64,000 nucleotides of DNA from Spiroplasma sp. TIUS-1. GTDB lineage: Bacteria > Bacillota_I > Bacilli_A > Mycoplasmatales > Mycoplasmataceae. Below are positions 7,325 to 11,317 of this stretch, one piece after another. The position numbers and the translations under genes are program-made. The DNA lies in contig NZ_CP048387.1 in NCBI RefSeq assembly GCF_010365785.1, positions 1 through 64,000 on the forward strand, in the 5' to 3' direction. The notes under the pieces were generated by a model that was given only the letters and a program-made list of their open reading frames with translations, searched no databases and was not told the DNA's origin. Position 1 is the stretch's first letter; each line of letters opens with the position of its first letter.

Positions 7325-8593
7325 ATGCTAGATATTAAATTTTTAGAAGAAAATAGAGAGTACGCTATTAAACAACTAAACAAACGTAATGCTGATTTTA
7401 CGAAAATTATTAATGATATATTAAAAGAAAATGCAGAACGCAAACTGACAATTTCTAAATTAGAAACATTAAAATCAGAAAAAAATAAATTAACTAAAAG
7501 TATTTCTGAATTAATGAGAAATAAAGATGTATCTGGAGTAAATAAAGTTAAATCTGAAGTTGAAAAAAGTTCTAAAACTATTGGTACGTTAGAAGGAACT
7601 TTAAAAAAGATTGAATTTTCATTAAATGAAAAATTAATTTCAGTACCAAATATTCCAAACAAGGATATCCCTATTGGAGTCAATGAAGAACAAAATATTG
7701 AAGTAAGAAAATATAATGAAGAAGGAAATGTTTCACGTGAAACACCTCATTGAGATATAGCAACAAAACTCGGTTTAGTTGACTTTGGTATAGGTCCTAA
7801 ACTAAGTGGATCAAGATTCTTAGTATATACTGGGAAAGGTTCAAAAATGGTTAGAGCTTTGGCTGATATTTTACTTAATCACCATACAAATAACGGATAC
7901 AGGGAAATGTTTGTTCCTGTTATTGTTAATCCTGAAGCCATGTACGGGACAGGGCAACTACCTAAGTTTGGTGATGATGCTTACAAATTAGAAAATGGGC
8001 AATATTTAATTCCAACAAGTGAAGTTCCATTATCAAACATATATGCAAATGAGTTTATTGATGAAAAATTACTACCTATTAAATTAACTGCATTCACACA
8101 GTGCTTTAGAAAAGAATCTGGAAGTGCCGGTAGAGATACTAAAGGTATGATCAGATTACATCAATTCAACAAGGTTGAGTTAGTTAAAATGACTAGACCA
8201 GAAGACTCAATGAAAGAACTTGAATTGATGGTTGGAGACGCAGAAGCAATTTTGAAACTTTTCAAGCTACCTTACCGTGTAGTTGAATTATGTTCAGGAG
8301 ATATTGGTTTTAGTTCATTAAAGACATATGATTTAGAAGTCTGATTCCCTGAACAAAACAAATATCGTGAAATTTCTTCATGCTCTAATTGTGGTGACTT
8401 TCAAGCTATGAATATGAAAACCAAATTTAAAAACAGTGAAGGTAAAGCTCAATACGTGCACACATTAAATGGATCAGGTGTTGCCATTGATAGGTTATTT
8501 GCAGCAATACTAGAAAACTACTTTGATGGTGAAAAGTTAGTACTACCTGATGTATTAAAACCATATTTCAATAATGAAAAATTTATTAAATAA
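7325..8593 (+). CDS. serS: Seryl-tRNA synthetase
   Basis: SerRS (422 aa) charges tRNA-Ser. Residues about 30-110 form the tRNA-binding coiled coil, rich in Lys/Glu heptads. The class II core has [20 protein letters not shown] (motif 2) and [10 protein letters not shown] (motif 3). TGA Trp codons lie at 7751 and 8342. Codons N135 to T140 (NVSRET) overlap an exact parS 16-mer, so the DNA here carries two messages. SD GTGGAG precedes ATG 7325. Confidence 0.97.
7729..7744. other. parS-like centromere site 1 (exact)
   Basis: TGTTTCACGTGAAACA is a perfect 16 bp palindrome identical to the consensus bacterial parS site bound by ParB/Spo0J. It lies inside serS, 7.7 kb from dnaA. Two related sites follow within 1.7 kb. 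Confidence 0.8.
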
Positions 8594-8595
8594 CT

Positions 8596-8628
8596 AAAAT
8601 GTTTCACATGAAACATTTTTTATTTTAT
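8596..8628 (+). terminator. Terminator after serS built from a parS-like site
   Basis: AAAATGTTTCA (8596-8606) pairs perfectly with TGAAACATTTT (8609-8619), then TTTTATTTT. The stem contains the 16-mer TGTTTCACATGAAACA (8600-8615), which differs from consensus parS at one position, so the element may act both as RNA terminator and as ParB-binding DNA. Confidence 0.75.
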
Positions 8629-8637
8629 TAGTTAGTA

Positions 8638-8646
8638 TGTTAAAAT
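8638..8646 (+). promoter_or_regulatory. Extended -10 promoter of the SRP RNA gene
   Basis: TGTTAAAAT is the same extended -10 9-mer as upstream of gyrB. It ends 6 bp before the predicted 5' end of the RNA. Confidence 0.6.
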
Positions 8647-8652
8647 CATTTT

Positions 8653-8736
8653 GTCATTGTAGGGGTAACAGCTGAATCAGGTCAGGATCGGAAGATAGCA
8701 GCCTTAAGGAAACGTGCCTTGTACTTTGACTTTTTT
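8653..8736 (+). ncRNA. ffs: Signal recognition particle RNA (small 4.5S type)
   Basis: The conserved SRP domain IV hairpin is present: AGGTCAGGATCGGAAGATAG (8680-8699) followed by CAGCCTT matches the GGTCAGG...GGAAG...AGCAGCC signature that binds Ffh. Terminal GTCA (8653-8656) can pair with TGAC (8727-8730), after which a T run ends the gene. At about 80 nt it is the short form lacking an Alu domain, typical of Mollicutes. Confidence 0.92.
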
Positions 8737-8753
8737 ATTTGGAAAGAAAAACT

Positions 8754-9167
8754 ATGGATTACTTTAAAGAACTTTATAACCTTTTAGATAATTGCGATAA
8801 ATCACAAGATATACCAGTATCTGCGCTATTGGTTAATAGCAATAGTGAAATTGTTGCTAAATCGTATAATACAAGAAAACTAAATAACAATATATCTGAA
8901 CATGCTGAAATTAACGTAATAAATGAGTTAATTAGTAACATAAGTTATCAGAATCTTAGTGAATATACTTTATATACAACTTTAAAGCCTTGCACAATGT
9001 GCACTGGAGCTATAGAACAAGTTAAAATAAGAAAGGTTTTTTACTATGTTGAAAACAAGTTTAATACTTATGAAAGCCCAAACATTGAATATATACACTT
9101 AAGAAATGAGAAAAACATAGACTTATATGTCAAAAAATTACAAAATTGTTTTAAGAAACTAAGGTAA
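8754..9167 (+). CDS. tadA: tRNA-specific adenosine deaminase (A34 to inosine)
   Basis: This 137 aa cytidine-deaminase-fold enzyme converts the wobble adenosine of tRNA-Arg to inosine. The zinc and catalytic motif H50-A-E52 and PCTMC with C80 and C83 are intact. It is a little shorter than the usual 150-160 aa. ATG 8754 is chosen because GGAAAG lies 7 bp upstream; an in-frame TTG at 8739 lacks a site. The gene begins right after the SRP RNA, as in many Firmicutes. Confidence 0.88.
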   Translation: MDYFKELYNLLDNCDKSQDIPVSALLVNSNSEIVAKSYNTRKLNNNISEHAEINVINELISNISYQNLSEYTLYTTLKPCTMCTGAIEQVKIRKVFYYVENKFNTYESPNIEYIHLRNEKNIDLYVKKLQNCFKKLR

Positions 9168-9214
9168 ACAAGGAGCCTTTAAAGTAAAATATATTTAATT
9201 GATTGAGGGATATT

Positions 9215-11317
9215 ATGCAAAAGAAAAATTCATTATACAGATATTACAGACCCAAAACATTTAACGATGTTGCAGGTCATACAAATCTTAAAAAGATACT
9301 TATTGAGCAAATCAAAAACAATAAGTTTTCGCATGCTTTAATTTTTTCTGGTCAGCGAGGTACCGGTAAGACATCAGTTGCCAAGATTTTTGCTAAAGTC
9401 ATCAACTGTGAAAACCCTAAAGATGCTGCTTCATGTGAAACATGTAATAGTTGTATACAAGCAAATAATAATTCTCACCCAGATATCTTTGAACTAGATG
9501 CTGCTTCTAATAATGGTGTTGATGAAATGAGAAATATTAGAGCTAATGTATCTACTTTGCCCATTTTGTCTAAATATAAAGTTTATATAATAGATGAATT
9601 TCATATGTTAACAAAATCAGCTTATAATTCATTATTAAAAACACTTGAAGAACCACCTCAACACGTACAATTTATTTTAGCTACAACAGAGTTACATAAA
9701 ATACCTTTGACAATTATTTCAAGATGTCAAAATTTTAATTTTGCCCGTATAACTAAAGTTGATTTAAAAGAACAAATAAGTAAGATTGCCAAATTGGAAG
9801 GCATAGATGTAGAAGAAAAGGCTTTGGATGAAATATTTTATCTTTCAGAAGGATCATTAAGAGATGCAATTAACGCGTTAGAACAAGCTGGTTCGTATGC
9901 AAACAAAGTTACTGAGTCAGTATTAAAGGATGTGTTTTCAATAGCAACCAAGGAAGAAAAAATTGCTTTAATAAGCAAGGTTCTTGGTGGAGATGCTAAA
10001 TATGTTATTAGTTTTTTTGAAAATTCAGAGCAACAGGGTATTGATTTTCAGTCTCTTTCTCTTGATATCATTAACTTAATTAAGGAAATTGTTGAATTTA
10101 AAATGGTTGGTGAATTAAAAAAGAATTACAGCATAACTTTAGAAGAGGCAAATAGTTTTAAAAAATTTGATATTAGCTTATTATTTGATTTATCAGATGA
10201 AATAGCTAAAGCGTATGAATCTACAAAGGGTTCATCGATTGACAGTCAATTACTGTTAATTGCTTTATTAAAAGTTATTAATGTAAGTAAACTTATAAGT
10301 GTAGTAAATTCTGAAGTAGTTTTGAGCAACAAAATAACAAATAAAGAAGTTGAAATGAATAAAACTGAATTACCTCCTTTTAATAAAGAAGAAAAAAGAT
10401 TAGTTAAAACTGAATTCAATAAGTTAGAGGAAAGTACTAAAACTATTGAAATAAAAGAGAAAATTGTTGATGAAAAACCTAGTGTTTTAGGTGAAACTGA
10501 CAAAAAAAATGAATTAAAAGAAAAAACAAAAATTACAGAGAACATAGGGAAATATATTCTTGGTGAAGGTATTTTGGATAATATCAATCCTTCAATTGAA
10601 ATTACTGACTTAAATCTTGATCAAGGCATGTCTGTTGAAGAATTAATTGCCGATAAAACTATTGATAAACTACTAGAAGAAGAAACTGGTGTTATTAATA
10701 CAATGGATTTAGATACAGAATTGACAATTCCAATTAATGAAAAAGTTGTTTATGATCTATCGTATTTTGAGAATTTAAAGCATCAAGGACCATTGGATAA
10801 AAAGTATCAAGATATTGATACTATATGAATAGATGATGCAGAAATAGTTGCAACGCTATTAAACGCAGACAAAGTAAAACGTTTAAAATTTCAAACACTA
10901 ATAAATCAAATATTTGATATTAGTTCACCTCAATTTGATCCAACACTAGCTAAAAAATTAGTCCCTTTATTTGGTGCAAAAGTTTTAGCGGGTAGTGATA
11001 CTTCTATTGTTTTGATAATGGATACACCAATATTAAGTAACTATTTACAATATAAAATAAACAATTTGGATTTTAGAAAGCATATATTTGAAAAATTAGA
11101 TACTGAGTTAATTATTTACAGTGTAAGTAAAGAAAGAACAAAGATTTTAAAAGAAGAATATGTTTTAGCTGCTAAACATCCTGAAGAATATGTTATTCCA
11201 AATGTAGATGACTTTTATGAAAGTCTACAAGAGCAAATAAAGGATATGAGTGAGCCACCACTGGCTAAGGAATCTAAAGATTTATTTTTGGATGATGATT
11301 ACACGGTGATTAAATAA
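9215..11317 (+). CDS. dnaX: DNA polymerase III subunits gamma/tau
   Basis: DnaX (700 aa) is the clamp-loader ATPase. The Walker A motif GQRGTGKTS starts at G46, a zinc-binding cluster CENPKDAASCETCNSC follows, and LEEPP and the SRC sensor motif are present. Residues about 360-530 are a low-complexity acidic/Lys-rich linker to a C-terminal tau-like domain. TGA Trp lies at 10827. ATG 9215 follows GAGGGA; the upstream TTG is less likely. The stop overlaps the recR start by one base. A parS-like 14/16 site overlaps the zinc-cluster codons. Confidence 0.95.
9427..9442. other. parS-like site 3 (14/16)
   Basis: TGCTTCATGTGAAACA matches consensus parS at 14 of 16 positions. It lies in the dnaX zinc-cluster codons (SCET), so protein constraint could explain part of the match. 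Its support comes from clustering with the two better sites at 7729 and 8600. Confidence 0.4.

Follow-up and report, generated by a model that had tools for sequence, protein, structure and literature searches.

Evidence for a two-site parS centromere in and behind serS, served by a chromosomal ParABS system, in Spiroplasma sp. TIUS-1

The closest described relative of the locus analysed here is the Soj-Spo0J-parS system of Bacillus subtilis, with which it shares the same 16-bp parS, orthologous ParA and ParB proteins, SMC and ScpA, and the location of the sites near the origin; the par genes of B. subtilis lie in the neighbourhood of rsmG, as they do in Spiroplasma sp. TIUS-1. The Spiroplasma genome differs in having just two sites, 0.9 kb apart, in and behind serS, in the lack of a noc gene between rsmG and parA, and in the N-terminus of its ParB, which carries a motif of the YxFxxLNDILG type instead of the GLGxGL type found in B. 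subtilis. A mollicute centromere made up of two parS sites and belonging to a conserved chromosomal ParABS system is of a known kind. The presence of ParB is likewise not new, since expression of the protein is known from the proteome of Spiroplasma eriocheiris (PMC5988712). The open-licence papers searched yielded no description of Spiroplasma parS sites or of their location at serS, nor of any link between serS and parS or of parS in combination with a terminator, a T-box or serS.

The window (the whole stretch of DNA that was analysed) comprises bases 1-64,000 of a single-contig genome of 811,521 bp. The features relevant to this work are:

1..1320, plus strand: dnaA, which marks the origin side of the window
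7325..8593, plus strand: serS, seryl-tRNA synthetase, read with UGA as Trp; host of site 1
7729..7744, no strand assigned: parS site 1, exact consensus TGTTTCACGTGAAACA, within the serS reading frame
8591..8634, plus strand: predicted RNA hairpin in which site 2 is embedded, the parS arm being followed by TTTTTTATTTT; possible intrinsic terminator for serS
8600..8615, no strand assigned: parS site 2, TGTTTCACATGAAACA, one mismatch (in the centre), beginning 7 bp past the serS stop codon
8650..8736, plus strand: ffs, small SRP RNA (RF00169, 45.7 bits), the next gene past site 2
9215..11317, plus strand: dnaX, host of the doubtful third site
9427..9442, no strand assigned: parS-like sequence with two mismatches, within dnaX, probably a chance match

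A scan of the window recovered the three sites proposed by the sequence-only reading, at 7729, 8600 and 9427, with 0, 1 and 2 mismatches to TGTTTCACGTGAAACA, respectively, and agreed with it that no other site reaches 14/16 (the next best, at 10483, has 3 mismatches) and that about 0.02 sites of this quality are expected per 64 kb (0.026 when recomputed at 29.8% GC). Across all 811,521 bp, no site other than 7729 and 8600 has 0-1 mismatch, the expectation from composition being 0.00025 for exact matches and 0.0135 at ≤1 mismatch, and the reversed pattern used as a control gave zero sites at two mismatches. The sites at 7729 and 8600 are far beyond chance. They are not randomly placed, both being found 7.7-8.6 kb from dnaA, nor are they lost in close relatives, as the sister species keeps two exact parS in the same locus. 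The CACATG variant seen in site 2 is also the parS of the ParB-positive genomes G050, G060 and G065.

A ParB-family protein is encoded where the sequence-only reading had predicted it, left of dnaA: the parA-parB pair occupies 774,943-776,587 of 811,521, and a profile search located the only ParB_N match of the genome at 775,435-775,707 on the minus strand. The locus has the order rsmG-parA-parB-ychF-gltX and, assuming a circular contig, lies ~35 kb to the left of dnaA; the order rsmG-parA-parB-ychF is found, whole or partial, in relatives. The GC skew is negative at 768-784 kb, mixed at 800-811 kb and positive across the window, which places the origin at, or somewhat left of, dnaA. In this ParB three Pfam domains score over the cut-off (ParB_N, 1.3e-31; HTH_ParB, 3.8e-27; ParB_C, 4.8e-6), the match to TIGR00180 reaches 173 bits (cut-off: 58), the closest solved structure by sequence is the B. 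subtilis-type Spo0J (6sdk, 6.8e-48), and the motifs GERRFRA and ENIQR are present. The specificity positions 173/179/184/201 read R-I-K-G, while Noc reads Q-K-K-R; the R and the G at two of these positions are conserved in ParB and changed in Noc (Jalal et al., PMC7383237), and both were found in 30/30 ParBs aligned from the order. Judging from the alignment, the protein carries specificity residues of the parS type and not of the Noc type. ParA is canonical (AAA_31, 2e-59; Walker motif KGGVGKTT), its gene shares 8 bp with parB, and genes for SMC and ScpA are present at other positions of the genome. A search of genomes with the ParB of the window genome also returned matches in Spiroplasma phoeniceum P40.

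We consider it highly probable that the sites at 7729 and 8600 form the chromosomal centromere, tied to the serS transcription unit, of a ParABS system that is complete and has been inherited vertically; the third site is probably not a parS. The centromere identity of the two sites is well supported, the binding of ParB is predicted, and a role in termination would be an additional property of site 2. By analogy with the family, a ParB dimer would bind both palindromes, close as a CTP-loaded clamp and slide onto the neighbouring DNA, where it would act as an adaptor for the ParA-driven separation of sister origins and for the loading of SMC-ScpAB near the origin. The centromere would be anchored to the serS unit by one copy right past the stop codon and a second copy in the serS codons; as RNA, the former could fold into a hairpin carrying a U-tract, and it may act as the serS terminator or be fused to it.

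Among 298 genomes of the order, 69 encode a protein with ParB_N and 229 do not; parS at ≤1 mismatch is present in 63/69 of the former vs 22/229 of the latter, with a Fisher p of 2.6e-38 that counts related genomes as independent and hence overstates the independent evidence. Presence and absence of ParB and parS are distributed across several genera. More than one site at ≤1 mismatch is never seen in genomes without ParB, and in those listed the positions are mostly scattered. Two of the 6 ParB-positive genomes that have no site at ≤1 mismatch exhibit the variant TGTTCCACGTGGAACA. The sequence-only reading, according to which ParB binding near oriC is little documented in reduced Mollicutes, was right in that the sites near dnaA are real, but parS is not rare in this group, as most ParB-encoding genomes of the order possess it. 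A full ParABS system has been kept in the window genome and in many relatives, with a patchy pattern of presence and loss within one family, which provides matched pairs for testing the role of ParB and parS in genome-reduced cells.

Where serS is within the parS locus of a ParB-positive genome of the order, the first parS in most cases begins 1-12 bp past the serS stop codon (families f1, f5 and f9), often with a second copy 25-90 bp further downstream; in one genome (G193) twin parS are located right behind serS. A parS in this post-stop position has been conserved in different genera and families. In the window genome (G000) and in its congener (G001), the second copy is found within the serS ORF, at different codons. 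Site 1 of the window genome corresponds to codons 136-140, GTT TCA CGT GAA ACA, read V-S-R-E-T (a peptide with 1152 synonymous encodings) in the context NVSRETPHW. Comparison of codons 135-140 with relatives, as proposed by the sequence-only reading, revealed in the SerRS alignment that the relatives, the congener included, have other residues in place of VSRET, and that the copy within the G001 ORF lies ~65 residues further on, where G000 has VNPEAM; from the aligned sequences the in-ORF copies seem to have been gained separately, in the same reading frame of this one gene. ARAGORN found no tRNA near the serS of the window.

Three loci (L054 of G022, L098 of G177 and L099 of G196) contain a single parS at ~1501, whose left flank corresponds to the first copy and whose right flank to the second copy of twin-site relatives, seemingly as a result of a deletion between the twin parS repeats that occurred more than once.

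Outside the order, parS is associated with serS in a different manner. A search for exact parS in 149 genomes of the class led to the examination of 24 loci outside the order; picking loci by exact parS does not favour any place relative to serS or a T-box. In 11/24 of these loci, from four families (f15, f18, f26 and f28), the Rfam alignment puts the exact parS at stem III of a serS T-box leader, ~7-11 bp upstream of the GGGTGG-type antiterminator motif. The T-box model RF00230 scores over the gathering score in nine of them (L152, L153, L154, L159, L164, L168, L170, L171 and L172), while the matches in L161 and L166 (E-values 6.6e-17 and 1e-18) are cut off by the end of the locus. The flanks of these parS copies lengthen the stem, the added pairs varying from genome to genome (3.73 vs 1.18 permuted, p = 0.0002). 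Three other loci (L160, L163 and L167) have a serS T-box without parS at stem III and with parS behind serS; in seven f28 loci parS is found 1-4 bp past the serS stop, and in 3/3 genomes of f18 the serS ORF contains TGTTCCACGTGAAACA, read V-P-R-E-T. ParB is encoded in 25/26 parS-bearing genomes tested, the exception being 62% complete. In contrast to the 11 genomes with parS at stem III, the window genome carries one site within the ORF and the other past the stop codon, and a search with RF00230 found no T-box at its serS. The conserved near-origin order gyrA-serS-ffs-tadA-dnaX accounts for some of the proximity of parS to serS, but not for its precise placement at stem III or right past the stop codon. 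In L154 (1487-1530) a second parS occurs 230 bp upstream of the T-box copy, in a perfect palindrome with 17 extra pairs per side followed by a T-run, which makes it terminator-like.

We tentatively propose, as a generalization that we put at somewhat below an even chance, that in a broad part of Bacilli, including Mollicutes, the centromere is written into the serS unit, with parS acting both as the DNA site of ParB and as a structural RNA helix (T-box stem III or terminator hairpin), and in some lineages as codons of serS. If so, the function of the centromere and the expression of serS would place constraints on one another and perhaps be linked by mutual regulation, for instance by an effect of ParB on parS upon serS transcription or of transcription upon ParB loading, and one short sequence would, in an unusual manner, have two readings, one as a centromere in DNA and the other as RNA structure or protein-coding sequence.

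The predicted hairpin at 8591..8634 folds with -9.5 kcal/mol (z -2.3 vs shuffles); a consensus terminator scan, which requires three G-C pairs, did not list site 2. Among ParB-positive relatives the post-stop parS is often part of a longer palindrome with a T-run, resembling a terminator, and the pairing of its flanks beyond the 16-mer averages 4.84 vs 1.68 permuted (p = 0.0002). The corresponding values are 4.66 vs 1.03 for the downstream second copies, in which two pairs of the arms differ by compensatory changes between G032 and G016, and 1.2 vs 0.56 (p = 0.10) for the in-ORF copies, which show no significant extension. Ordinary hairpin terminators directly behind serS occur in several ParB-lacking relatives; their sequences are unrelated, and none of them contains parS at ≤2 mismatches. 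These comparisons suggest that in several lineages, but not universally, parS has taken the place of the serS terminator or become merged with it. The idea that post-stop hairpins are terminators everywhere was rejected: g12 and G035 have a separate hairpin between the stop codon and parS, and the f28 post-stop copies mostly exhibit neither palindromic extension nor a T-run. A separate terminator between the serS stop and parS, with little extension of the latter, was also found in G012 and G019.

The long palindromes could alternatively be of mutational origin, produced by template switching that perfects imperfect palindromes and not by selection for an RNA hairpin; we regard this as possible, albeit less likely than not. 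T exceeds A downstream in 20/30 post-stop sites of the order, the excess being absent in g6, g16 and g25, and long palindromes without a T-run are common among the second copies, as in genus g11, where the arms comprise 11-18 pairs; a mutational origin is therefore possible for a part of the pattern. Moreover, the hybrid flanks in G022, G177 and G196, which are as expected after deletion between twin copies, indicate that these sequences recombine. On the other hand, the in-ORF copies and those behind a separate terminator (G012, G019, L163 and L167) are mostly unextended although they contain the same palindrome, T-runs follow most first copies of g8, g11 and g20, and parS coincides exactly with stem III of the T-box in 11 genomes, where an RNA helix is expected.

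The sequence-only reading counted 9427 as part of a three-site cluster, and the reading in which all three sites bind ParB and form a three-site centromere is in our opinion unlikely. The site has a perfect right half and lies 0.8 kb from the others, and the genome contains three two-mismatch (14/16) sites (9427; 347,975; 557,215), slightly above the background of ~0.8 per genome estimated from the ParB-lacking family members (13 sites at ≤2 mismatches in total, n=17); with such a background, however, a lone two-mismatch site is not clearly beyond chance, and the two other sites are far from the origin. The sequence corresponds to the dnaX codons GCT TCA TGT GAA ACA TGT, encoding an A-S-C-E-T-C stretch in a cysteine motif, which accounts for its letters, and at the same position the congener differs from parS at 6/16 letters and ten other relatives at 5-9. 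Given this poor conservation, 9427 was rejected as a probable chance match and the cluster is best called two sites.

We find it very improbable that the palindrome past the serS stop codon is merely an intrinsic terminator that resembles parS by accident: a hairpin with a T-run is indeed in the right place, as are ordinary hairpin terminators in several ParB-lacking relatives, but those are unrelated in sequence and not parS-like, while the exact 16-mer is retained in different genera along with ParB and recurs within serS codons and T-box leaders. Even less credible is the identification of the ParB-like protein as the nucleoid occlusion factor Noc and of the palindromes as Noc sites, for although among the NCBIfam models the one for Noc gives the highest raw score (207.6 bits), that score falls short of the model's cut-off of 315, the protein has RxxG and not QKKR as specificity residues, parB directly follows parA, and the window contains no Noc-type site at ≤3 mismatches.

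Several further observations concern the window genome and related genomes. In most ParB-lacking family members (L126-L143) ffs no longer follows serS near dnaA, and loss of parS may free serS to move; two ParB-lacking g4 loci (L130 and L143) retain serS-ffs without parS. In G105 and G115 (L107 and L102 vs L144 and L145) serS has moved to ~1.0 Mb while the twin parS stayed ~7 kb from the contig start, which indicates that parS can outlive its neighbour. A second protein with ParB_N, encoded well away from the par locus by a short open reading frame (135-140 aa), is present in G036, G123, G137 and G160 (g11). Two loci filed as Rickettsiales / Rickettsia typhi MAG contigs (L090 and L091) encode a ParB 49-50% identical to that of the window genome and are probably misbinned Spiroplasma-like contigs. 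The two-mismatch parS-like sequence at 557215-557230 lies ~320 bp from scpA (557551-558213), which may be due to chance. Finally, positions 36735-36875 of the window match the ribosomal protein L10 leader (RF00557, 72.4 bits).
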